A stretch of 64,000 nucleotides of DNA from positions 5,757,001-5,821,000 of the forward strand of contig NC_080561.1 in assembly GCF_030253575.1 (NCBI RefSeq). The letters run 5' to 3'. How positions within the stretch are numbered: the stretch's first letter is position 1; each line of letters opens with the position of its first letter. The DNA is from Rhododendron vialii. Its lineage: Eukaryota; Streptophyta; Magnoliopsida; Ericales; Ericaceae. The position numbers and the translations under genes were made by a program. Of the stretch, positions 1 to 62,465 are shown piece after piece. The notes below the pieces were generated by a model that saw nothing but the letters and a program-made list of their open reading frames with translations, did no database searches and was not told the origin of the DNA.

Positions 1-797
1 CTGACTCAAAGGGTCTAGTTCAAGACATAGTTCACTATGATCTTTCAGAGGTAAACTATTAACACTAAGTGAGGTTCAAGTCCGGAAGACACCTTCACCT
101 ATTGCACAGTATATAGTTGCCCAATTTTGTGTTTAGTATGTATTTTCAAAGTCATGTGATTTTAAAAGTCAAACTATAAAATATTTATTTTATTAAAAGT
201 GGGGGATTGTTGGAATATTTTTAATAAAATAAATATTAGTATTAACTCCTCACCTTTAGTGTTTTACCGTTACAATATTAATGTAGTATTGAAATATCGG
301 TTACAAAATAAAGAGTATTTATGCTCTATCATTATCTCTATATTAATGGTTATTACTCCTATATATATGTGTATCTCATATAAGGGAATTGAGAGAAAAA
401 ATAGAAAAGACAAAAACTCATGTTCTTAGAGATGTACAAAAAGAGAGATACAAATATGTTTGTATGAAAGTTCACATTCTATTTTCTATATTTTCTATGT
501 TGATTGGGCAACTCGGTTTGTGACTCGTTCAAACCTCTCGGTGGTCGTGAACATCGGATGAGGAATGCTTGTGAGCGCTTGGGTTTAATCTTGGGGCTAG
601 TACACTCCGGTGGAACCTTCACGAGGGGAGAAATATTAGCCTTAAGACAGTGACTATATGACTCTCAATCTCACAGGCAACATCTTTCTTACTCTTAATA
701 TTTTCATATTGTCATATTTCTAACTTCTTGTATTTCCATACATTATGTGCTCTATTTATTCTTGTGAAAAATAATATTTGTGAATAAAATCCAAACA
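1..797 (+). mobile_element. 3' end of a Copia-type LTR retrotransposon
   Basis: A purine-rich tract (195-206) is followed directly by TGTTGG at 208, the usual junction between polypurine tract and 3' LTR in plant Copia elements. The LTR is taken as 208-797 because TCCAAACA at 790-797 mirrors the TGTTGGA start and receptor-kinase coding sequence begins just after it. The rest of the element lies left of the window, so the target-site duplication cannot be checked. The 1-207 stretch shows no convincing coding sequence and is probably the region between pol and the LTR. The right boundary is uncertain by some tens of bases. Confidence 0.55.
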
Positions 798-2590
798 ACA
801 TCTTGGTCAATGGTTCCGAACAAGCAAGCGAACAAGACCGAATTCAATTTTACATGGAGATTACCAGTGGATTTGGGATTTCGGTACCTGCTTAGATTGC
901 ATTTCTGTGAGCTTGAATATGAGGTAAAAGAGAGTGGCTGGAGGGAGTTTAGTATCTTTGTTAATGAACAGGTTGTTGAGGCTAAAGGTGACCTTGTCAA
1001 ATGGAGTGGGGGAAATGGGGTTGCGGTGTACAAAGACTATGTGGTGATGATGGAAGGAGATAGGATTGAGGGCAAGCAAGATTTGCTTATAGCACTGAGC
1101 CCTCACAACCATGGATGGACGGAACCAATTGATGCAACTCTAAAGGGGATAGAGGTATTCAAGTTGAGCAACCCCGACAAAAATCTTGCTGGGGTGAACC
1201 CAGTGCTGCTAGCACGTGCTTCGACATCTCCAAAGCCCAAGAAGTTGGTGTTTGCTACTGGAGGAAATGCCATTGCAACAGGTGTAGTAATTTTACTCAC
1301 TGTGTTGAATATCATTGTTTACCAATTGCGTAGTTTAGGTGAAAATAGTGCGGGGAGAAATCTCTCTTCGTCAACATCGGAGGGGTTGTGCCGTCGTTTT
1401 ACACTTGCTGAGCTCATGTCAGCGACCAATAACTTCGATGATGAATTGGTCATTGGAAGTGGTGGATTTGGTAAGGTCTACAAAGCGCTTATTGATGATG
1501 GCGCAACAACGGTTGCCTTAAAGCGGTGTAAATTGAAGTCTCAAGGGGCAAAAGAGTTTTGGACAGAAATCGAGATGCTTTCCAAGCTTCGACATACGCA
1601 TCTCGTAAGTCTTTTAGGCTATTGCGATGAAAGCAATGAGATGATCCTTGTTTATGAGTTTATGGAGCATGGTACACTTGCCGATCATCTCTACAAAACA
1701 AAAACCAGCGGTGATGGTATCTTTGACCATATGTCATGGGAGCAAAGGCTCAACATTTGTATAGGTGCTGCTCGTGGATTGGATTATCTCCATACAGGTA
1801 TTCGTCACGGTATAATACACCGAGATGTGAAGACCACAAACATCCTATTGGACAAGGATTGGATAGCTAAGATTTCAGATTTTGGGTTGTGTAAACTGGG
1901 CTCAACAAGCCATTCCCACACGCACGTTAGCACAGATGTTAAAGGCTCATTTGGGTATTTCGATCCCGAGTATTTCTTGACCCGTAGGCTAACTAAGAAG
2001 TCAGATGTGTATGCCTTTGGTGTCGTGATGTTGGAAATGCTTTGTGGGAGGCCAGCAGTTGATATGCGGGTTGATGAGGAGCAACGTAGTCTTGTCCTAT
2101 GGGCTAAACAGGGCATCAAAGAGGACAAACTTGATCAACTTATTGACCCCAGTTTGAGGGACCGAATCTCGGCACATTGTCTGAAATTGTTTGCGGAAGT
2201 TGCTAATAAATGCTTAGATAGTCTTCCAAAGGGACGGCCTACAATGGCTGATGTGGTGGTGAGACTCGAGTACGCATTGGCTTCAGAGAGGGCTATGGAC
2301 GAGCAGTTTGGTGAGAACGCTCAAAGGGATGACTCTCTTCCACGAGGCGATGCTCCTTCCTCCTCCACTTCGGCCTTGTACAGTGAGAACACCCAAGGCC
2401 AGAATAGGTCAAAGGGAAACGTTAGCAAGGTGTTTCAGAGGACTATTAAATTTCTAGCTAAAGGTGATCATATCAAGTTGAAAAAAAGAAAGGGATATGA
2501 TTCCAATGGTGAACAATCACTTTCAGCTGTTAGTTCCACCCGTTCAATATTGAAGTGGAAAAATGTCACTCTTCCATTCCGTCGTTTCTC

Positions 2591-2674
2591 AGTTGGAGGC
2601 AAAATCCCTAGGAACTTCTCATCCTACTTTACAGTTGGAAGCAAAATCCCTAGGAACTTCTCATCCTCAGCTGC
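2591..2674 (+). repeat. 42-bp tandem duplication in the inter-kinase linker
   Basis: Two consecutive copies of a 42-bp unit encode a 14-residue repeat containing GKIPRNFSS and SKIPRNFSS. It lies in the linker joining the two kinase domains and keeps frame. Confidence 0.8.
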
Positions 2675-3419
2675 AAGTGGTGGCAATGAGGCATATCCCA
2701 GTGGGCAGATCTTACCCACCCCGAATTTAAGGATATTCAGTTTTTCAGAATTGAAGACTGCCACCGGAAATTTCAGGATTGATACGGTAATTGGAGAAGG
2801 AGGTTTTGGCAAAGTTTACAAGGGTTGGCTTGAGGAGGTGGTCACATCAAAGAACGGTAATGGTTCAGTTGTTGCTGTCAAGAAGTTGGACTCCGAGAGC
2901 AAGCAAGGATTCGAAGAGTGGCAGGTAAAACCAATATGGGCTGAATTATTGCCTTTCACTTCAGCTCCTTGTTAATTACCTGCTTTGATACTTGGAAAGT
3001 GTACTTGTTCTTAATCTCTATGTCATTCGAAGCTGGGATTTTATGTGTAACTGATTTGTGTAAACAATACTTGTTCTGAAATGGCCTTCAGATATGAGTA
3101 TGAATGCTTTAGAGGATTCTTTTTTCATCACGTGCGCATCATATAGCAATATCCAAAGAACATTAGGTCTTCTGTTGGATGAAGTTATTAGGTTGGCTAG
3201 AGGTTAAGACTTGTCGTGCCTATAGAACTGTCTGAACGTAGATGACTTGCTTTGTAGAGGGATTGATGGAAAGGCATTTTAGTGCAGAATCCACGACATG
3301 AAGTACTAATCATCCTTTATCTCCCATTTGTCTCAATAAAGGAAAAACAGAAACTGGTCTTGGTTCACAGGTGGGAGTGATGCAGTTAGAATTTGAAAAA
3401 AAATTAAATTATTTAAGTC

Positions 3420-3840
3420 TGTTAGTTTTATTAGTATAATGCGAGTCAAAGAGTCTTTATCATTTTCTGTGTTAGTCAAAGAGTCTTATCATTTTCTATG
3501 TTAGTCAAAGAGTCTAGTTGTCTTTGTATTTGTTCTATGAGTCTTCCTAGTTTTTCGGAGTCAAAGTCTAATTTTCATTATGAGTTGTCTTGAAAGTTTA
3601 AGTTTGTATTTCCTATTCTTGGAGGGTTGTTCCTCGAAGTCCTATATAAGCTTTGCTAGTGAAATGAAATAGGAAGAGTTTTGAGTTTATGAAACTATTG
3701 TGCAAGTATTTCTTGCTTGAGAGTGAATGATTCCTCCGACAATCAAGTGTGTGACTTGGTCGCGTGAGTGTCTTCCACGATTAGCAACGTCGAGTCGCAT
3801 CCCAAGACTATCCTAACCTTGCTGGTTTCGGCCTGCATCA
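3420..3840 (+). mobile_element. LTR-like fragment in the tandem-kinase intron
   Basis: The stretch begins TGTTAG and ends TGCATCA. It holds a TATATAAG promoter-like box near 3643 and a short internal repeat (gtcaaagagtct, three times), as in small plant LTRs. No internal element region and no matching 5-bp target duplication was found, so it is at best a solo or decayed LTR. Confidence 0.4.
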
Positions 3841-4948
3841 GGGAGGCAGGAATGGGGATTCTTTTGTTCAGAATTTGGGTATTGTGTATTTCTTAACAAA
3901 ACAATCTGTTCTGTACTATGCTTGTCATGAAAAAGTGGCTGTGTAGTGTTTGTTATGAAAAGGTGGGTGCCCGGAATTGTTACTGTAACCAATGTAGCTA
4001 ATTGTTTCCTACCTTCCTGGCATCTGCAACCACTTGAATGGAAGTCATTGGAATGTGTATGGTTTGGATCTGGAATTGATTTGTTATTCTTAGAAACTTT
4101 AAATTGGACGATATCCTAGCTCATAGTTTTGTATGAGACTGAGCATTTGTACTTTTCCCTGTTTGTTTTGGGTGATGTATGTTAAACTTTGATGTAACTC
4201 ATTTTCTCAATTATATTTCGGATAACTAATCATTTCACTAATTGCTCTCTTTATTAATGTCTTCTGAATGCCATTTGCTTACCTGTTTGTTCACTGATTG
4301 TGCAGTCTGAGGTCCATTTCTTAGGAAGGCTTTCTCATCCTAACCTTGTCAAGCTATTGGGATACTGTTTGGAAGACAATGAGCTACTCCTTGTGTATGA
4401 ATACATGAAAAAGGGCAGCTTGGAAAACCACCTTTTTGGAAGTAAGAGCTAATGGATGTCATTTATGAAACTATTTATGCGAGATATGCTAGCATTTGCG
4501 ATGTGAGAATTGATTGTCTTCTGCTCATTAACCTAATTCATTCAGCTTACATTATACATTTTATGCTTTGGTTTTTTCTAGTGGGCTCTGCTGTTCAGCC
4601 ACTTCTATGGGACATAAGGCTTAAGATATTAATAGAAGCAGCTCAAGGTCTCGCATTTTTGCACACATCAGAGAAACAAGTGATCTATAGAGATTTTAAG
4701 GCCTCGAATATATTGCTTGATGGGGTAAGTTACACAATGAACTAATTAGCACCAGGTGACATACAAAGGAATGCAAATGTATTTCATGGTTGAACATTAT
4801 TCTTTCCTTCTACGAAGGTTACGTGATGACTTCTGCCAGACTCTCCCTATGTGGTGGATATGCATCCAAACATGTCCCATTACCTTTAACCTATTTTCAG
4901 AACGAGAAATGCTTTGAGTAATTGCAAGATGGTGGCCGTATTTACAGA

Positions 4949-4968
4949 CACACACACACACACACACA
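4949..4968. repeat. (CA)n microsatellite
   Basis: Ten CA units in an intron of the tandem-kinase gene. Confidence 0.95.
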
Positions 4969-5877
4969 AACACACGGGAAAAAAAGGAAAAAAACATGCA
5001 TGTTTGAGAACAGTAACTATGGAATAATGGAAGCACTTAAATTGCACCCATCTACCAGGTAAAAAAGCCCCTCTTGCTTGGCTTGTTTTTATCATGTCGA
5101 TGGAAGAAATAGGGGATGGTAGCAATATGGCTCATGTATATCTGAATATTTTCGGAAAGAGAAGCATGATCACTTATACTTGGTCTGACACAGTGTTTCT
5201 TTTGGCAGTGTTACAATGCCAAAATATCGGATTTTGGGCTGGCTAAATTGGGTCCCTCAGCTAGCAAATCACACATTACAACACGGGTTATGGGCACATT
5301 TGGCTATGCAGCTCCAGAGTATGTTGCCACAGGTAATCCCCTCAACCTTTTCAGATCTTCAATTTCTGAGGCTGAACAATCGCTGGAGTCAAGCTTTTGA
5401 AATAATCATGCTTCAGAGCCAGTTGAACTATACCCACATAACTTCAGTGTCTCGTACTAATATTACTCATCTGGTTAACCAGGGCAGTTGTATTTGAAGA
5501 GCGACGTGTATGGTTTTGGTGTTTTGTTGATTGAGATGCTAACAGGACTACGAGCAGTTGATCCAAACCGTCCCCATGGGAGACTAAATGTTGTTGACTG
5601 GATCAAACCACATTTATCTGACAGCAGGAAGTTGAAGCAGGTAATGGACTCCCAGTTGCAAGGAATATATCCTTCCAAAGCAGCTCTTCAAATAGCTTAG
5701 CTTGCCCTAAAATGTATTGAACCTGAACAAAAGACGAGGCCATCGATGAAAGTAGTAGTGGAGACGCTGCAACATCTTGTAGAAAACGATGAGAAGCCTA
5801 AAGAGCCTAGAGTTCATCCCAGAAATCGTACTACTTCTCATCACCCTCGTGGTCCACAGCAGCCTTTGCACCATTGA

Positions 5878-7368
5878 TCTCCACATCACCCGAGGCACCA
5901 CGACCACCAGTCCTATCAACTCCCTCTACCCGCACGGTAGCTTTGGTACACCACTTCCCACGAGGGCTGAGCAGGTTGTGATGAATCTGCGTGTGAAGAT
6001 TCTATCGATATCAAACTGCCCCTCTCTCTCGTCTGCTACAGAAATTGTAATGAGTTTTGCTGTTCTAGTGGTGCTATGTTCTTAGAAGAAAAGAATGTAA
6101 GGAATTGAGATGTAATTATTTTTGTTGGTCTCTTGACTTGTGCTTGACAACATGTTAACACGGCCATTATATGTACACCAGGAAGAAACAATTTCTGTTT
6201 CGTTGAGTTGATCAAAATCGTATGATAACGTGCGTTGTTGCAACCTCATGCATTGAAATTTATTTGAAATGAAGATTGCCATTCAATCTACGAAATGGGG
6301 ATAATAGTTAGTGTTTTGTCAATCACTAGAGCAGCTATTTTGTTATTGTAGTTTTTGTCTTGAGAGTGAAATTGCTGCGATTCTTCAAACATTAACGCTA
6401 GCAATGCATATCTGAGGTGGATCTTCAGAGTAAAGAAGTTCAGTGTTCTTATAATCTGGCAGATAATGCAGTTTATCCTGTGTCAATGAACTTGGCTTGG
6501 ACCCACTGTCTATGGCAACATTTGAAGAATTAACCAATGTGGTGTGGTTCAATATGGAAACAACGCAAATACCCTTTTACAGGATCCTAAATATGTGAAG
6601 TTGGGCTTACCTGGAAGAAGATACCAAGGCCAGTGGCAAAACTACGGAGGATCCAAGCTCCTGTCGGGAGTATCCGATGGTAAAATAGCGTGAACTTTGA
6701 AAACTGTTTTGGAAATCATTGTTGAATTCTTTTCATTATCGATGGATCCCACTGTTAACCCATGAGTTTCTACCATTTGACCCACATTTCTTTTAGCTTA
6801 CAGACTGCCTCCTTTAAGAATGGTTTCAACAGATTTGCAGAACCCTTGTTATCACCACTTGTGCACAAATCTGGCATCTAAACCTGCAATTCTACTGGTA
6901 GTTTGTTAGGTCTATGTTTTCAAAGCTCAACACCCATGAGGCCATTTGCTTGACAATAGTTCAAATCTATCAGGAGTCCGGACAACCATACAAATCACTG
7001 GTCATTGTGAAATTTCAGTCTACAGATAGACATATATCTGAATATATACGCGGGCCGAGGCAGAAACACCCCAGAAGCCTAGCAAATGTTCAGTGCCCAT
7101 TGAAACAGACTTAAGAGTAAGAGAGACATGCAGGAGACAAAAGAATAATGAGGCTATCAAAATGGAAATATTCACTAAATATACCACCTTACCTATTTAT
7201 TACTAGTATGGAGAAGTATTTAGTACAGAGCAGTACAGTTTCCTAAAGTATTTCCAAGAATTACAAATGCTGCTTTCTCCCAGTTCATGGAGCTAACATA
7301 CAAAAGCATTACAATGTAGTACCAAACAAGGAACAACACAAATAAAGTCCTACCTAACATAAATTTCC
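5878..7368. other. Intergenic, no gene seen
   Basis: Follows the ancestral stop of the tandem-kinase gene and precedes the 3' end of the zinc-finger gene. Short open frames here have no recognisable content. The right part is probably the 3' UTR of the minus-strand zinc-finger gene. Confidence 0.5.
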
Positions 7369-8502
7369 TTACAGTCCCAACCTTAAATCCAAAGCCAGCC
7401 CAGAAGAAGAATAAGACAACAAGGACGACGACAAATCGTTTTCAACAGGAGCAGGCAAATTCAAGTCCAAAACACAACTTTGCCTTGATCCACCAGAAGG
7501 GTTGCAGTTAAAACCACCTTGTGTTACAAGTGACAATGAAGAGGGTTCATGATCATCGTCTCCTTTCTCCCAATGGCACCTCTTGTGCCCTCCCAGGGCT
7601 TGACCGGTCGCGAAAACCCTTGAACAAATGCCGCACTTGTGCCCTCCTGAAACCATGCCCTCCCCTAACTCTCCACTCCCACTAAAATCCACATTTTGGG
7701 CGTCAACGTTGTTGCGATCTTCTATCACTACTTCTTCGCAATCGCTCCTCATTATCGCGAAACAACCCTTGACATTCTTGTGGGTAGCCCTGTGCCCTCC
7801 CAATGCCTGATGGGACCCAAACACTTTCTTACAACTCGAACACTCAAACCCACAATCACCATTGCCACCGCTGCCGCCGCCGGTGGCTGCCACATCCCTA
7901 ACCACCACATCATCACTTTCCAACTTCCCATGATTAGTACCACTAATGGTAACGAGACTAAGGCCCTTTTTCTCGAAAGCACTAGGGGAACTAGCCAACA
8001 TCAACAAACAGGCAGCAACCTCATGATCCTCCTCTGTCCACTCGGTTCCAACCATGACGCCATCATTCTCCGGCCGCCTGAAATCCGGCGGAGGGTTAAT
8101 TCCACGCCACTGGCGTTCTGGGTGGCACCGCATGTGGCCGAAAAGTGCCTTCCATGACCAGAACTTCTTTCCACACTCGCTGCACGGCCGCGTAATCTTC
8201 GGTGCACTCGGGTCTGGCTTTTTCCCTCCATACTTCGGCTTCTTCACTGCAACACCACTAGTAGTAGTAGTACAAGAACTAATACTTGGATTCAACCCAT
8301 CTGGGTTTTCAATTCTGATCAATTTGGTGCGTTTCTTTTTGGGATTTTGGTGGTGCTTGGCGGGGTTACGGCGGAAGTAGTTTTCGCCGCCGCCGCCGAT
8401 GATGCTGCCGGGGAAGATTTCTTGGGTCGGGGAAACAGACAGTTGAAGGTAGGCGGCGGCGGTGTTGGTTTCAGTGTTGATGTTTCTTTCTTGGTTCGTC
8501 AT
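7369..8502 (-). CDS. C2H2 zinc-finger repressor, ZAT2/ZAT3 (DAZ)-like
   Basis: A 377-residue intronless gene, as usual for plant C1-type C2H2 factors. Three fingers lie at about 107-127, 221-241 and 290-310. The second and third carry the plant QALGGH helix. The first has the diverged KALFGHMRCH form followed by PERQWRGINPP, which I know from Arabidopsis ZAT2/ZAT3, also described as the DUO1-activated DAZ1/DAZ2 proteins. A basic run at 54-60 may be a nuclear signal. The end carries two EAR-type repression motifs, DLNLP (346-350) and LDLRLGL (371-377). The family acts as nuclear DNA-binding repressors; DAZ1/2 act in pollen germ-cell division. The ATG at 8500-8502 fits the family N-terminus (MTNQE). 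A coding-strand (CT)n tract lies about 110 bp upstream. Confidence 0.93.
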   Translation of the reverse strand: MTNQERNINTETNTAAAYLQLSVSPTQEIFPGSIIGGGGENYFRRNPAKHHQNPKKKRTKLIRIENPDGLNPSISSCTTTTSGVAVKKPKYGGKKPDPSAPKITRPCSECGKKFWSWKALFGHMRCHPERQWRGINPPPDFRRPENDGVMVGTEWTEEDHEVAACLLMLASSPSAFEKKGLSLVTISGTNHGKLESDDVVVRDVAATGGGSGGNGDCGFECSSCKKVFGSHQALGGHRATHKNVKGCFAIMRSDCEEVVIEDRNNVDAQNVDFSGSGELGEGMVSGGHKCGICSRVFATGQALGGHKRCHWEKGDDDHEPSSLSLVTQGGFNCNPSGGSRQSCVLDLNLPAPVENDLSSSLLSYSSSGLALDLRLGL

Positions 8503-8614
8503 CTCAATGGTTTCAATAATGCCCTTTTGGGATGAAAATGCAGATTTGGCGAAAAAAGTTTAACAATGGGGTCGTGGGTGTTTTAAAGTGGCCGAGACCA
8601 GCGGTTACCACTAC

Positions 8615-8615
<1 letters not shown>

Positions 8616-8645
<30 letters not shown>
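8616..8645. repeat. (GA)n microsatellite upstream of the zinc-finger gene
   Basis: About 15 GA units, reading as (CT)n on the coding strand, in the presumed 5' leader or promoter of the ZAT2/3-like gene. Confidence 0.95.
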
Positions 8646-8649
<4 letters not shown>

Positions 8650-10892
8650 TTGAATTTGGGTAGTTATTTTCAGTTATGCATCTTTATCTCTTTTAAAACT
8701 TTCTGGGGAGTTGTTGGGTGTGTAACACTGAGGGAAATGAGAAAGGTTTGACGACATCAACCGTCGGATATTGCATAGCATGCGCACCATCGGATGCCAT
8801 ATGATCATGTAGGCAAAAATGCTACGGCCTCGGGTTGTGTCAGAACTATCCGATATGTGGTAGACTCCACATCTATTTCGTGGGATCCACTGTCATCGAA
8901 TGATTTCGGATACATTTATGTCTAAAAACGTGCATGGGCAAAGTCAATTAAGGCCTAGTGGGTCACATGTCCCGTGGATTTTTATCTACCTACTCCCTTT
9001 TTTTTTTTGTTACACCTACTAAAAAAATGTTTGAGAAATTGGAAGTTTTGGGCATTGGGCTTATTGTCTATTGTGTTGTCGTGGGTTTTCAAGCAAATCA
9101 ATAGACCCTTTCAATAATTAAATGCTCGTTTCATCGTGGCAAATAGCAAATTGCTATTTTGTGTGACCTGTTTAATCCATCCAACTCATTTTCTAGCTTT
9201 TCAAAGTAAAAGTTGAACAATCAATTGAGGAACCGAATGAACGATCAATGGTTGAACAACGGCTTGGAGGTATACATAGAGGAGTTGTTTTTAACGGAAT
9301 TACTAACAAACCCAACCATGCAGAACTTTCAAAAGATGAAAACTCGTCGGGGTCAATTGTAAAAAAAATTAGTAACGAATACTTAGACCTTTGTACTTAT
9401 GTTTACAAATTTTTGTCCCTAAAAGATAATATTTGAATTTTTGTGCTTAGTATTTCTTTACCCTATTTTACTATGAATATTTTTTAGTTCATTGGAAAAA
9501 GTGCCCAATTTGAATGAAATTCCTGGCTCCGCCATCCTCTATCTGTGCTTGTAACATTGCTAGTAGCGTAGGGAATAAAAAGAGAGGGATTATCCAGTGA
9601 TGCACGGTAGAACCGCTTAACAAAGCTTGAGGGCCAAAGAGCACACTATGGCTTCAACTAATGGAAGTGATAAGGGAAAATTATTGGGTCGTCCTTCGGC
9701 ATGGCCATTTATCGATCCAACCCCTTCACGATCACACAACCATCTAGGTCTGTACATTGTTATAGACCCTACATTGTGAGGTTACCAAGGATGTAGGTGT
9801 GCAACGCGTCTTTCCAAAATGGACACTAATTTGGCAATTTGCTTTCTTCACCTTTTTTAAGAAAAGCAAACAAGATTACTTCTCATTTTGCTTGCAAGGC
9901 CAATTTAAGAAAATCCACAGCTCTTCTCTAACAACTTCCCCTCTTCACTTTCTTTCTCCAGGAACGAAATGGACATTTCACTTTGCCTATTAAATATTGG
10001 ATGGTGAAATTGGAATCACAGAGAGAAAAATGTAAATTTGGTTGGTGCAGGCAACCTGACAGCCACAATCATCAGTGAACCAGGCATTATTAACCCAACC
10101 CCACTCTCCAGTAAACAGTTCTTGAGCGGAACCCCCACAGTAATAATGGGAGGCCCAGGCAGTTTCGGCCCAAACTGAGGGCCCATTGGGTGTGAGAATG
10201 GGGTACCATGGCTCGAACTCTTGACATGGCAAATGACACCACAAGAGTTTCACCACAAGGGAAATCAAAGCTTTGGTGAAGGCTTGAGAAACGATGCAGA
10301 AGCAACATCAAAAAAACACAGGCACAGCTGCAGAAGGAATCATATGATGTCAAAGAAAAGTTCCAAGAGGAACCAAAAGAACAGAAGAAAAGACCGCAAT
10401 CCATAAGGTGTGTATTATTTAGTAATAACTGCTTACAGTTACAAAGACAACCAGGAAAAATCATAGCTAACATTACAATGATACAGTGCTAACCAATTGC
10501 TTCATATATTACAGGTTGTGCCCACGATAACAGATAACCATCCAAACATAATTGTTACATTCGGCGTTCATTTTCATCACTGACTGTGTGTCTTCAGCGA
10601 CTCTAAAGTATGCAACTTTACAGGGTAAGAAGGCACAGGTTTTAAGAACCTAAAGATAGGCTGAGAGAATAGCTACAAATGATTTAAGGGTTACTACATT
10701 ACAGCGTCTGCCATTATCAACAGGTTTAACTGTTGGCAGTACGGAGTTCAACAGAAACAGGTACAGGAAGATTTTTACAGGAAATAACAGCAAGCTAATT
10801 GAAGGACAGCCACACAGAAATTTAGGGAAAAAGAGAAAGAAATCATGCTCTTGAGTCCAGAGCACAATGAACCCTAGGTTCATTGCATCCTA
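8646..10892. other. Intergenic with dispersed repeats
   Basis: No gene is supported. About 9010-9535 is a dispersed repeat also present at about 33620-33897; both share a tract with caaatagcaaattgct and end in a 'cct(g/a)(g/a)ctcc(g/a)cca' sequence. The stretch from about 10400 to 10892 probably includes the 3' UTR of the minus-strand gene that follows. Confidence 0.5.
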
Positions 10893-37412: not shown

Positions 37413-39017
37413 GTAATCACCATAGTTTTATTGTATTAGATTAGTCGTGCTATGGTGGGAGGATAAGTGAAACATATTACAGATAATATCAACGAACAAT
37501 GAGTTGTATGAAGTAGATGTAAAGTTAGTGTAATGTGGATGGTGGTCACACACATAATGAATTTAGAATTTGCTCGGGACTCAGATTAAAGGGAATTTTT
37601 TTTTTTTTTGGCCCCCTATGTTTGATTCCTAATCAAACAAATATAAGTTAAAATTCATTTTACCTTCTTAATTTGTTTAATTTTTTTCATCTCACAATTT
37701 ACTTCAATCTTTCTTTATTTTTTGAAAAGCCAAAAAGAGAGGAAAACTTTGCATTTAGCGGATAATTTCTTTCGTACTATTTCTCTTTTGTTTGTTTTTT
37801 TTTTTATCAGATTATTTCTCTCTTGTTTAATTCTCTTCTTTTCCTTCTCTTCCAAACACAGTATTTAGCCATTATTCTATAAGTTTTACTTTCTGGATAC
37901 TTTTCAAACCAATTTTTTGAGTATATAAAATTGTTTAAACATGAGTGATTAGCAACCAACCTAAAAATATTAGATTTTTATACACGTTTTATCATAGAAA
38001 TTTTACATTGTATTACCATTTCATATATTTACTACGTTTGATTAAGGAACAAGAGGGGAAAAAAAAAAAATGAGCATTTCTATTTCGCATCAGATTTTTC
38101 CCGATAGAATAAAATCTTGACTTCATCTCGAGTCTATCATACTATCATAGTTAATGACTCATTCCGGATTTTATTTTATTTGCATATGTATCAATTTCAT
38201 TTCTAGCATCCTCATCTCATATCCTTTGGGAAGAGCCAAAGGTCGAGCAAGTTGGTGGTCAATAATTGTTTTATACTCCAATTGGTTGGTGAGTTTGCTC
38301 CTCAACAATAGATTAAGGTTTGATTATTAGAGTCAGGCCGCAAAAAATGATTTCTCGTGAATTCTCTAGTCTCAGCGTAGATAGCTTGCCTTTAACTGAA
38401 CCAAGAGAGAATTAGTTGACGTGGGCATAAATTGGCCTAGACACCTTTTACCGTAAAAAATTGTTCATGCATGTTGCAAATTTTCTCATAAGCTTTTCGA
38501 ATTGACATTCATTCTAGATTTGGTACTTTCCAAAGGGAAAAAGAATATATTCGGAGTACAAATTCACATATGAGGAAGTTTTGAATAATCCATGTGCTAT
38601 AAATAGATAAGTTGAAGCCCCAATTAAAATGGCATCTTCTCATTGGAGTATGGAGTCAAGAGGGAAGAGAGGTCTCACATGTAGATAAGAGGTTTGTTGA
38701 GTAGCCAAGGATGATTTGCCTGCTTCTACTCCTCAAGGGATCTGGAAATAATGAAGCATTATTCACAACCCTTTGCTTGGTTTCAGGCAATCACCTGACA
38801 ATCTCTTCTGTTTCATGTCAGACCCTTCTCTTCTTCCATTGCCAGTAATGCATGCTTGATATTGTCTTCAAGGATAGAGATATTGTCGAGTGTCTATGTT
38901 GTGACAAATACAATGAGGCAATACTTCTCCGGTAAAATTCCGACGGAAGGTTGGTAAGGTACATGCAAAAAATCTAGATGCTCAAGTAATGTTAGACTTC
39001 TAACAGCTTATACAATA
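37413..39017. other. Intergenic, no gene seen
   Basis: AT-rich sequence between the hAT MITE and the first MULE-type element. No exon-like or repeat structure could be supported. Confidence 0.5.
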
Positions 39018-40523
39018 GGAGAAATCTTCAATACACACCCCTTTAAGGTGCATATCATATGCACCTATTGTGTGGTCCATATTGTGCCACCTCATTAAAA
39101 ATTACCTGCTGAACCGGTCATTCATAACATTTTAGGCCTATCGTAACTTTTATACCAAAAATTCGTAACTTTTGATTCATAACCTTTTAGTGTATATCGT
39201 AACTTTTACGAATGAATCGTAACTTTTTAGCAACAGATTCGTAACATTTTTAGAATCGTAACATTTTCAGTTCGTAACATTTTCACTACGGAATCGTAAC
39301 ATTTTAGTCTATTTCATAACTTTTCTAAAATCAATTGTGCAATCAATTACTCAAACAAATTTTTTTTTTAACGGTAGTTAATCAAATATGTAATCTATTA
39401 TGTGAATGTTCAATTCCATAATCGATTAGACTTTATAATTGATTTTTCAATTGATTAGACATTATAATCAAATATATAGTAATTGATTACATATTCGATT
39501 GGACATCATAATCGAATATGTAATTAATTCTATTATGTTCAATTATGTAATCGATTAGACAATGTAATCAATTTTGTAATTGAATTGAGTACGATTGGAT
39601 AACAATGTGAAGTCTATTACTCAATCAATTTGCTAATTGATGGGCCTCAGTAAGTTCTCTAATCAATTGCGAAATAAGTTAAAAACAACATTGCAATAGA
39701 TTGAAAAATCAATTGTTCTGAATAGCACAAATAACTGATTACATGATAGATTATATTTCTCTGCGGTTTCAATTACGTAATTGATTGGTATTGATAACTC
39801 TTGTAATCGATTACATTATCAAATACGAGTATTAGTTATTTGTAATTCGGATGGTTGCACTAATTCACAAAACACTAGTAGTACGTCTATTGACCAAAAA
39901 ATAAATAGCACGGCCTAAATATTATTGTCTTTTACACATAACCTAAAATGTATTGGTAAATTTATCTCGTCACCATCACTCTTTTGATCACCCATATTAA
40001 TTTTTTTGTTAGTGTTTCCTACTTATTAATACAGATGATCGACTTCGCTATTCCTTTTAGTTAGACTATTTATGAGAAAGTTTACCTGCAAAGACATGCA
40101 AAGCGTAAATTAAAGGGATTGAAATGGGTGCTTTTCATTTTGCATTCTGCAACTTTTGGCAGCTGCAAGAAAGCAAAAATGCCAAATACACAGTGGAAAC
40201 AATAACTCGCACAAGGGGGTTGAACCCTTGGAATTTCTAAACTGCAGAAAACCAACTTCACAAATAGAACTTTAAGACACCAGATCCATTCTTAACAGGT
40301 TATTGCCAGGAGAAAAATAACTAGAAAGACATCTAAACTGCAGAAAACCTATCCAAGCATGGAAGAACTTTACAAAAAGTGGCAGGAATAACATCTAAAC
40401 TGCATCTTAACAGGACCTATAAAATGATCAAAATACCTAAACCATCCAAAAGAAGGTTGCAAAAACATTGAAAACATAAAGGAATAATAAAAAAAACTTA
40501 GATGTTCAACAATTTGTATCCGT

Positions 40524-41937: not shown

Positions 41938-42609
41938 ATTCATACCTGAGAGAAGCGACGATGATGGACAAGGAGGAGTGACCACGACTGACGAACTGGG
42001 ATGAGGGAGGGCGAACGGCAGACTAATAGGTCTGGTTTCGTCGAAGGAAAAGAAAGAGATACACTGGTTGGGAAAAAAGTGAGAGACGGGATTTTCTTTC
42101 CATTTTGGTTAATTTACAAGGTTTACCTGTTGCATTGGTAACAAGTTTTTTGTTATTAGCCTATCGTAACATTTTAAAGGGTCCAGATCATTTCTCAAAC
42201 ATCTAATGGTAATAAAAAAGGGTGTATATGATACACACCCAAATAAAGGGTGTGTATTGTAGCACTTCTCATAAATTAAAAGAACCAGAGAAGGAAAAGG
42301 AAATGCTAACAGCACCGTAGACAACAACTCATTGATAACGAGGGAGACACACACAATGTTTCGATAAGAAGCTTAAATACTGAGACAAGAGAATAGATGC
42401 GTGAATAACAAGTAAACCTCCACAATATACTATATGAAGAAAGAGTCGCATAGCACATTTCCGTAACAACACTCCAAAAGGATTCCCATCCCACATAGGT
42501 TTAAAATTACTCAATACTATCTAACTGGCCAGGTAAAATTCTTCAATGCTGAGTGCGAAGGGCAATTTCTCATTGGACATTATTCTGTAGGTTTTGAAGA
42601 ATGAAATAT

Positions 42610-46452: not shown

Positions 46453-46621
46453 GGCATTTGTGGCACGCGCCACATGTCGTCTCAGACATGCGCCATATGG
46501 TGCCTCTTTTGACATGCCACGTGTTTGAGCAATTTTTACCCTCTACACCAATCATTTGATGAATCTTACTTCAACATTAAAAGCAAAAATTTCCCAGCAC
46601 GTACAAAACGATCTTTAGTTA

Positions 46622-48245
46622 GGGAAAATCTTCAATACACACCCCTTTAAGGTGTATATCATATGCACCTATTGTGTGGCCCATATTGTGCCACCTCATA
46701 AAAAATTACCTGCTGAACCGGTCATTTATAACATTTTAGGTCTATCGTAACTTTTATACCAAAAATTCGTAACTTTTCATTATCGTAACTTTTACACTAA
46801 TCAATCATAACTTTTTAAAATCATAATATTTTGGTGTGTTTCATAACTTTATAAAAAAAATCGTAACATTTTCACAACGGAATCGTAACATTTAAGTCAA
46901 TTTCATAACTTTTTAATAACGTATAATCAATTGTGCAATTGATTACTTAATCAATTTTTTTAACAGTAGTTAATCTATTATGTCAATGTTCAATTCCATA
47001 ATCGATTAGACTTTATAATTGATTTTTAAATTGATTAGACATCATAATCAAATCTATAATTGATTTTGCAATTTTATAAATAGAAATTATAATCAATTAG
47101 ACATCATAATCGAATATGTAATCAATTCTATTATGTTCAAATATGTAATCGATTAGACAATATAATTGATTTAATTTGTAATTGAATTGAGTACGATTAG
47201 GAAACAATATGAAGTCGATTACTCAATCGATTTGCTAATTTATGGGTCTCAGTAAATCATCTAATCAATTGCGAAATAAGTTAAAAACAACATTGCAATA
47301 GATTTCAAAATCAATTATTCTGAATAACACAAATAATTGATCACATGATATATTATATTTCTCTACGGTTTCAATTACGTAATTGATTGGTATCGATAAC
47401 ACTTGTAATCGATTACATTATCAAATATGAGTATTAGTTATTTGTAATTCGGATGTGAGCACTCATTTACAAAACTCTAGTAGTACGTCTATTGACCAAA
47501 AAATAAATAGCACGTCCTAAATATTGTTGTCTTTTACACATAACTCTAAAATGTACTGGTAAATTTATCTCATCACCATCACTCTCTTGATCACCCATTA
47601 ACTTTGTTAGTGTTTCCTACTTGATTAATACGAATGATTGACTTCACTATTCCTTTTAATTGGACTATTTGTGTGAAATTTTTTTTTTGATCCGCATGTG
47701 AAAGTTCATTATGCAATTAAAGGTATTGTGAAAAATGTTAAACATCATAATATTTCAAAAAATTCAAAAAAAAATTGGCTACATATATGAAACACTTTAA
47801 AAATCCTGTAAAAAAAAATGCCTTAACTTGACTTTTTATTACATTATGATAATAATAGTATCTTTTTCCTTTAGTAATAATCGAGAACAACATATTTTAA
47901 AGAAGAAAATTATTTTCACTTGAAATAATTTTAGCTACAAAGTTTTTAAAAAATAAAAGTATTATTTTTAACATAAATTAATTATCAAAAATAAAATTGG
48001 GCCTAATTTTTCGAAGGAAAAGAAAGATATACGCTGGTTGGGAAGAAAGTGAGAGGCTTGAGAGGATTTTCTTTCCATTTTGGTTAATTCATAGGGTTTA
48101 CCTGTTGCACTGGTAACAGGTTATTTGTTAATAACCTATCGTAACATTTTAAAATGTCCAGATCATTTTTCAAACATCCAATGGCAATCAATAAAGGTGC
48201 ATATGATACACACCTAAATAAAGGGTGTGTATTGTAGCACTTCTC
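46622..48245. mobile_element. MULE-type non-autonomous element with 9-bp target duplication
   Basis: CTTTAGTTA occurs directly before (46613-46621) and after (48246-48254). Ends GGGAAAATCTTCAATACACA and the complement of GAGAAGTGCTACAATACACA are inverted repeats about 45 bp long with mismatches. The left 350 bp again hold repeated tcgtaac(a/t)ttt motifs, then aatcgatta-type motifs closely related to the long copy. The interior (47680-48000) is AT-rich and non-coding, so the element must be mobilised in trans. The 9-bp duplication is the MULE hallmark. Confidence 0.9.
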
Positions 48246-61803: not shown

Positions 61804-62465
61804 TCATCGCACATACACTGATACACATACATTCATACTATATATGAGAGAGGTTTTATTCATCGATCGCACTGTACACATGGCATGCATACATTGTAAG
61901 TCGTTTATTCTATATTGGAGAAGTTTGGGGGAGATCGGTTCACCTTCGGCCTCGTTGTCTTCTTCATCAGATGAGTCGTCGTTGGAGTCGTCGTCGTCAG
62001 ATGAGTCGTCGTCGTCAGATGATCCGTCGTTCGAGTCGTCATTGTCAGATGATTCGTCGTTTGTCTCGTCGTCTACAGCGATCTCCCCGCCCGCAGCTAG
62101 TACCTCGTCTTCTTCATCAGATGAGTCCTTGTTCGAGTCGTTTTTGTCTTCAGCGATCTCTTCGTCCGCAGCTAGTACCTCGTCTTCTTCTTCCCCTGCA
62201 GCGATCTCTTCATCCACAGCTACTTCGTCCCCTTCTGGATTTATCTTCAACCTCCTTGGATCAGAAAGGTCCATTGATCCTCTCTCTCTCTCTCTCCCTC
62301 TCTAAATTTCCCGCCAGCTTTGTCTCCAGCTATCTCCTCATCCGCAGCTACTACCTCATCTTCTTCCCCTACATTGATCTCCACCTCCGCAGCTACCTCG
62401 TCCACTTCTGGATTTAGCTTCAACCTATTTGGATAAGGCTCCATTGGTCCTCCCTCTCTCTTCAT
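61804..62465 (-). CDS. Acidic low-complexity ORF(s), duplicated start region
   Basis: Two minus-strand frames, 62247-62465 and 61804-62274, begin with similar blocks (NRLKLNPEVDEVAAEVEI and RRLKINPEGDEVAVDEEI) followed by EEDEVxAADEEIA repeats. The second continues into a long Asp/Ser-rich run (SSDDDDSSDDDDSNDDSSDE). Each is preceded on the coding strand by a GA tract, so the second looks like a partial duplication of the first. Whether either is translated is unclear; the composition fits an acidic nuclear or chaperone-like protein or repeat expansion only. Confidence 0.35.

Follow-up and report, generated by a model that had tools for sequence, protein, structure and literature searches.

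The subject of this analysis is a gene of Rhododendron vialii in which a malectin-type receptor kinase of the CrRLK1L family runs in one reading frame into a second kinase of the RLCK-VII/PBL type. It lies on the forward strand near the start of the stretch analyzed here, referred to as the window, which comprises 64,000 nucleotides of contig NC_080561.1 (C5:5757001-5821000); the genome searched for relatives comprises 532.6 Mb in 13 contigs. The fusion is real in sequence, and it belongs to a family of CrRLK1L genes in which the second module differs between paralogues. Exon 1 is open from window position 768 to 2924 and is joined through GT/AG splice sites to exons at 4306-4441, 4582-4724, 5209-5332 and from 5483 onward, with the four junctions in phases 0, 1, 0 and 1. 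The frame encodes, in order, the end of a malectin-like ectodomain (798-1217; positions 230-330 of the 331 in the Malectin_like profile and residues 271-411 of the FERONIA ectodomain 6a5b), a membrane segment (1263-1328, holding the top hydropathy windows of the frame, with a mean of 2.19 over 19 residues), a FERONIA-like kinase 1 (1383-2282) in which the G-loop, Lys, HRD, DFG and RPTM are present, a linker (2283-2702), and a PBL/BIK1-type kinase 2. The first part of kinase 2 (2703-2924, with the donor CAG/GTAAAA) occupies the same exon as kinase 1, and the remainder follows in exon 2, exon 3 (which encodes YRDFKASN), exon 4 (DFG) and exon 5.

Searches of the PDB separated the two kinases clearly. 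The best match of kinase 1 is FERONIA at 382 bits, while kinase 2 matches PBL2 at 392 bits and BIK1 at 389 bits versus 227 bits for FERONIA. The two are only 40% identical across 272 aligned positions and their best relatives differ, which rules out an origin of kinase 2 by internal duplication of kinase 1. The initial annotation had credited both kinases with intact Lys, HRD and DFG motifs. Kinase 1 has all three, and kinase 2 has Lys and DFG but carries YRD in place of HRD, which is usual for its group since the unfused PBL genes that were compared have YRD too.

The linker is common to the paralogues and consists of the receptor tail followed by the start of the PBL-derived part, with similarity to the unfused PBL sequence beginning near 2632 in the junction alignment. 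The block common to the copies reads NRSKGNVSKVFQ..IEFLAKG..IKWKK. Alignment also revealed an in-frame 42-base tandem duplication at 2590-2673, which is present as well in L052, one of the related loci designated here by L numbers. A separate 29-base tandem repeat lies at 3444-3515 within intron 1.

It might be supposed that the locus holds two adjacent genes which gene prediction has wrongly joined, but this is very improbable. Kinase 1, the linker and the start of kinase 2 lie in one exon, not only in the window but also in L014, L015, L016 and L051. The window has no in-frame Met from 2295 to 4405 (residues 510-753 of its frame) from which kinase 2 could start separately, and its linker contains no Met-Gly pair. 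The shared exon and the missing start codon likewise rule out a separate downstream gene for kinase 2. Simulation left the interval 2280-2837 open in 5 of 20000 chance sequences built with its own base steps and in 0 of 20000 built with the base steps of 6301-7300. What speaks for two genes comes from L017 and L055, where an in-frame stop after the kinase-1 frame precedes the kinase-2 part, which would be joined to the receptor only by splicing. Kinase 2 of the window has no N-terminal Gly/Cys acylation site of its own and is therefore a captured PBL kinase rather than an RLCK protein.

The window copy of the gene is a decayed member of its family, broken by a retrotransposon and by a premature stop. 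Position 798 is ruled out as the start of the gene, as it is the edge of the 3' long terminal repeat (LTR; 208-797, forward strand) of a Copia-type element that sits within the malectin exon and spans C5:5752090-5757797 in all. The partner LTR (L009:2090-2679) is 99.66% identical, with 2 differences in 590 bases, and the target duplication ACATC flanks both ends of the element. The malectin exon is split accordingly: an upstream piece, corresponding at 83% identity to residues 57-297 of the L014 protein, stops at the start of the element, and the remainder picks up again directly past it. Residues 1-56, with the signal-peptide-like start, had no match in the 1361 bases that precede the upstream piece. 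At the rice substitution rate of 1.3e-8 per site per year, the element would have inserted on the order of 0.1 million years ago.

The second lesion is an in-frame TAG at 5698-5700, where all five aligned relatives have a sense codon. It ends exon 5 after 5483-5697 and precedes the last conserved block of kinase 2 (RPSM at 5737), with the remaining homology extending over 5701-5877 and ending in TGA at 5875. A complete kinase 2 in the window is thereby ruled out, and the window copy probably no longer makes a fused receptor. The initial annotation had described one continuous in-phase frame from a malectin-type receptor to a complete-looking second kinase, at 798-5877. The open first exon and the phased junctions bear out the first part of that description, although the frame is not open to 5877; the end of the malectin-like domain is present but the domain is incomplete in the window, and the completeness of the second kinase does not hold.

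The proposal that a CrRLK1L and an RLCK-VII kinase occur in one chain is instead carried by intact relatives, of which three (L014, L015 and L016) were found on contig C10 of the same genome. Their models are complete at 1233, 1250 and 1257 amino acids with 0 internal stops, carry a signal-peptide-like start, ectodomain, membrane segment, kinase 1, linker and kinase 2, and have the exon phases of the window copy. L014 matches positions 1-330 of the 331 in the Malectin_like profile in addition to the kinase. Lys, YRD or HRD, and DFG are retained in kinase 2 of all three. At the observed number of substitutions, the three kinase-2 frames all stayed open without constraint in 0 of 5000 simulations. 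The ratio of nonsynonymous to synonymous divergence (dN/dS) was 0.24-0.39 for kinase 1 (six pairs) and 0.27-0.36 for kinase 2 of the window versus L014-L016; for kinase 2 among L014-L016 it was 0.74-1.01 in one calculation and 0.74-0.87 in another, with intervals that include 1. Small extra kinase fragments that match both kinases weakly lie 3' of two of the complete fusions (L014:8636-8827 and L016:8000-8164).

The family extends well beyond these copies. The genome contains at least 67 matches to the malectin-like part and at least 91 to the linker and start of kinase 2; these copy numbers are lower bounds, as the searches scored the best candidates (150 of 832 for the linker and kinase 2, and 130 of 2355 for SOBIR1). 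Eighteen CrRLK1L loci were read together with their downstream sequence and counted. A nineteenth, on the opposite strand of L010, runs off the edge of its stretch and was left uncounted, though the visible part is also followed by a second kinase-like match, and the PBL-type matches on C10 near 5643657, 5685958, 5743812 and 5813023 are likewise outside the count. Among the 18 loci, the second module is of the PBL type in 10, of the SOBIR1 type in 2, a tail of a cyclic nucleotide-gated channel (CNGC) in 1 and a CrRLK1L-type pseudokinase in 3; the other 2 (L019 and L020) have none and are ordinary single-kinase receptors.

The PBL-type loci are the window, L014-L018, L051, L052, L055 and L056, and only 3 of the 10 are complete. 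The first exon of L051 is open, but 8.5 kb of sequence gave no match to exons 4-5. L056 and L052 contain frame breaks, and L052 is also partial and has lost the DFG of kinase 2. In L017 and L055, CRE and DFS replace HRD and DFG in the part behind the stop. L018 stops in kinase 2, with no exons 2-5 recovered from the sequence read. Behind this fusion copy (C10:5660001-5669000, reverse strand, 6350-9001) there is an open frame of Copia type, so that retrotransposons stand beside or within at least two family members, the window copy and L018.

Such decay raises the question of whether the second modules are a by-product of unequal crossing-over within a large cluster of tandem genes, mostly neutral joins on their way to decay whose second module has no selected function. 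Seven of the 10 PBL-type loci are broken, or incomplete as far as they were read, the window copy carries both a retrotransposon and a stop, and the kinase-2 dN/dS intervals among L014-L016 include 1. Against this stand the three complete models of 1233-1257 amino acids and a SOBIR1-type fusion of 1165 amino acids, two long CrRLK1L-pseudokinase frames (L010 and L012), and the failure of the simulations to keep the kinase-2 frames open without constraint. On balance, we consider this explanation improbable, though less so than a prediction artefact.

The remaining second modules are of three kinds. Three SOBIR1 matches were found at E values up to 1e-70 among the candidates scored, all on C12 within 17 kb, and they correspond to a leucine-rich repeat (LRR)-bearing SOBIR1 gene (L058) and two fusions (L013 and L053). 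L013 is one open frame of 1165 amino acids from its Met, and its second kinase scores 521 bits to SOBIR1 versus 201 for the next molecule. This kinase is 91.7% identical to that of L058, with a synonymous divergence (dS) of 0.10, and by eye it keeps Lys, YRD or HRD, and DFG. In L053 the SOBIR1-type kinase lies in a separate downstream frame and has HRG, its HRD having been lost. A CNGC-like scrap between the linker and the SOBIR1-type kinase of L053 suggests that a CNGC tail stood there before the SOBIR1 kinase took its place.

Such a tail is present in L054 (C10:5820501-5828000), at 3465-3746 and 5222-5983 with an apparent intron between. It comprises the C-linker and the cyclic-nucleotide-binding part, with 283 bits to CNGC5 and a cNMP_binding match. 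L010, L011 and L012 contain a second CrRLK1L-like kinase in single frames of 1349, 1005 and 1284 amino acids, the stretch for L011 starting within the malectin part, and these second kinases, in frames read by eye, have neither HRD nor DFG. Two kinase stretches each were found in L010, L012 and L013, and an ectodomain in L010 and L012-L014. Across copies of the receptor part, or chassis, kinase 1 has HRD in 15 of 15 and DFG in 14 of 15, with DYG in L017.

The two kinases of the window copy appear to have had different recent histories. An intact unfused PBL gene (C5:5710357-5714464, 419 amino acids, starting MGLC) lies upstream of the window copy, about 37 kb from its malectin piece ahead of the Copia element. 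This gene shares 90% identity (dS 0.10) with kinase 2 of the window, which is 67-70% identical to the C10 fusions (dS 0.60-0.69), while kinase 1 is 85-91% identical to the C10 fusions (dS 0.15-0.25). Compared with L014-L016 as far as residue 611, dS was 0.04-0.30 in 26 of 30 pair-windows and 0.40-0.47 in the other four (432-491 in L015; 72-131, 432-491 and 552-611 in L016). Past residue 611 it was 0.29-1.02 in 18 of 18 pair-windows, with the minimum at 732-791. That kinase 1 and most of the linker resemble the C10 fusions and kinase 2 the unfused PBL gene points to two parts with separate recent histories.

Phylogenetic trees gave the same picture. In the kinase-1 tree the window falls within a nine-row group with eight other family copies (98/98), and in the kinase-2 tree it groups with the unfused C5 gene and L052 (100/99). 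The latter tree has 13 rows, in which L051 fills 48% of the columns, and it omits L056, L018, L053 and those PBL loci among L034-L050 for which not all of exons 2-4 were modelled. Forcing the fused kinase-2 rows together was rejected (p-AU 0.017, in a clade test run after the pattern was seen). Kinase 2 of the C5 copies may have been replaced locally by gene conversion or unequal crossing-over, or the receptor part may have been homogenised. The junction motif RNFSSSAAS, common to the fused copies, is absent from the unfused PBL gene, which favours replacement inside an existing fusion over a fresh fusion. Second modules were apparently captured from a nearby gene in two cases, the PBL module of the window and the SOBIR1 module.

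The best explanation as a whole, to which we give a probability of roughly 0.6, is that the window copy is a decayed member of a family built from a conserved CrRLK1L chassis and an exchangeable signalling module. The receptor part, from the signal-peptide-like N-terminus to the tail or linker, is encoded in the first exon, and the receptor tail would act as the joint at which the C-terminal module is swapped. The acylation-type first exon of PBL is gone in the PBL fusions, so that the membrane segment of the receptor occupies the place of the lipid anchor and may have assumed its function. Through the C-terminal module, a copied immune signalling component would be held at the membrane.

What might such a module do? 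The most likely answer, held tentatively and at slightly under even odds, is that it is an integrated bait or sensor that registers pathogen interference with RLCK-VII, SOBIR1 or CNGC proteins, with kinase 1 as the output. We lean towards a bait on account of the channel tail and because several second kinases have lost catalytic motifs that kinase 1 has almost always kept. The explanation ranked next is that receptor and RLCK-VII or SOBIR1 partner are joined in one chain so that kinase 1 activates or phosphorylates kinase 2 in cis. FERONIA and RIPK, which are also a CrRLK1L receptor and an RLCK-VII partner but two separate proteins, are described as phosphorylating each other (PMC10515002). 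SOBIR1 is described as working with BIK1 and PBL30/31, and RLCKs as regulating CNGCs (PMC12170986). Through these links to RIPK, BIK1/PBL30/31 and CNGCs, the immune pathways of the three captured modules connect with one another. The catalytic motifs retained in kinase 2 of L014-L016 and in L013 lean the same way, towards a tethered partner. On the other hand, the non-kinase tail of L054 and the kinases without HRD or DFG (L010-L012, L017 and L055) are unlikely to be active partners, and dN/dS of kinase 2 exceeds that of kinase 1 in L014-L016. We rank a tethered active partner as the less probable of the two and as more probable than a neutral by-product.

Several observations weigh against a bait carried on an exchangeable-module chassis. 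The active-site residues kept in the three complete PBL fusions and L013 are no less compatible with a tethered active kinase. The fast evolution of kinase 2 among L014-L016 may reflect relaxed constraint, as the dN/dS intervals include 1. With so few PBL-type loci complete, much of the family is decaying, and the stop in the malectin part of the L054 chassis means that the CNGC fusion may never have worked. In the kinase-2 tree L017 and L055, for which the exon models are rough, sit on a long branch far from the other rows, and the clade test was post hoc. Finally, every relative compared stems from one genome.

NLR receptors with integrated decoys are conserved immune receptors that hold captured copies of host proteins. 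The fusions described here are alike in that captured host signalling domains (PBL, SOBIR1-type and CNGC modules) stand behind one chassis, but differ in that the chassis is a cell-surface receptor kinase. They may be, at odds somewhat lower than those of the bait role itself, a cell-surface counterpart of such decoys, in which a chassis spread by duplication has repeatedly swapped in RLCK-VII, SOBIR1 or a CNGC tail, twice from a nearby gene; the outcome would be a receptor family whose tethered baits or effectors are interchangeable.

Tandem kinase proteins are important for disease resistance in plants, and the origin of their kinase pairs and the role of the second kinase are open questions of the field. 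Like them, L014, L015 and L016 contain two kinase domains in one open frame. Among the tandem kinases described with Yr15/WTK1, the fusion type joins different kinase families, WTK1 combining WAK and RLCK_8, and the family is described as having no extracellular and transmembrane domains; CrRLK1L is absent from the main text of that paper (PMC6170490). The intact paralogues here, in contrast, have a full ectodomain and a membrane segment and an exchanged second module, which makes them a variant rather than standard tandem kinase proteins. Closer in one respect is WTK7-TM (Pm36), a membrane-linked tandem kinase in which both kinases are reported to be required for resistance, but its membrane segment is C-terminal, its origin is by duplication, and its architecture is described without an ectodomain (PMC11006675).

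The sunflower CrRLK1L-1 subfamily also has members with two or more kinase domains, and it is reported as the subfamily with the most multi-kinase members, 67 (PMC11646777). The CrRLK1L-1 genes at OrDeb2 are described as having no transmembrane or extracellular domains (PMC8866362), and they differ from the present fusions in that both halves resemble CrRLK1L kinases. At OrAnom1, two short H. anomalus genes are described as contiguously matching one longer H. annuus CrRLK1L-1 gene, one of the two being labelled as, and the other similar to, RLCK-VIIa-2 (PMC10884359). Among the titles and abstract openings that searches of open-licence literature listed, none described fusion of an RLCK-VII or SOBIR1 kinase to a full CrRLK1L ectodomain. 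Such a receptor, fused to the family of its usual downstream partner and having sister genes with SOBIR1 or CNGC modules, would make the question of partner versus bait directly testable. Because intact, broken and apparent donor genes occur together in one genome, it is possible to date the capture and to read its junction.

On the opposite strand, close downstream of the fusion, the window contains a C2H2 zinc-finger gene (7372-8559) in a single frame of 396 amino acids with three zf-C2H2_6 stretches. A scan of the window against Rfam gave 0 matches at the gathering score. Two pairs of direct repeats, 39016-40083 with 46620-47682 (84% identity) and 42041-42270 with 48011-48245 (88%), occur in the same order about 6-7.6 kb apart and may represent a segmental duplication or related repeats. 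A tandem-repeat tract at 61967-62461 consists of overlapping arrays with several periods, including 48 and 173.

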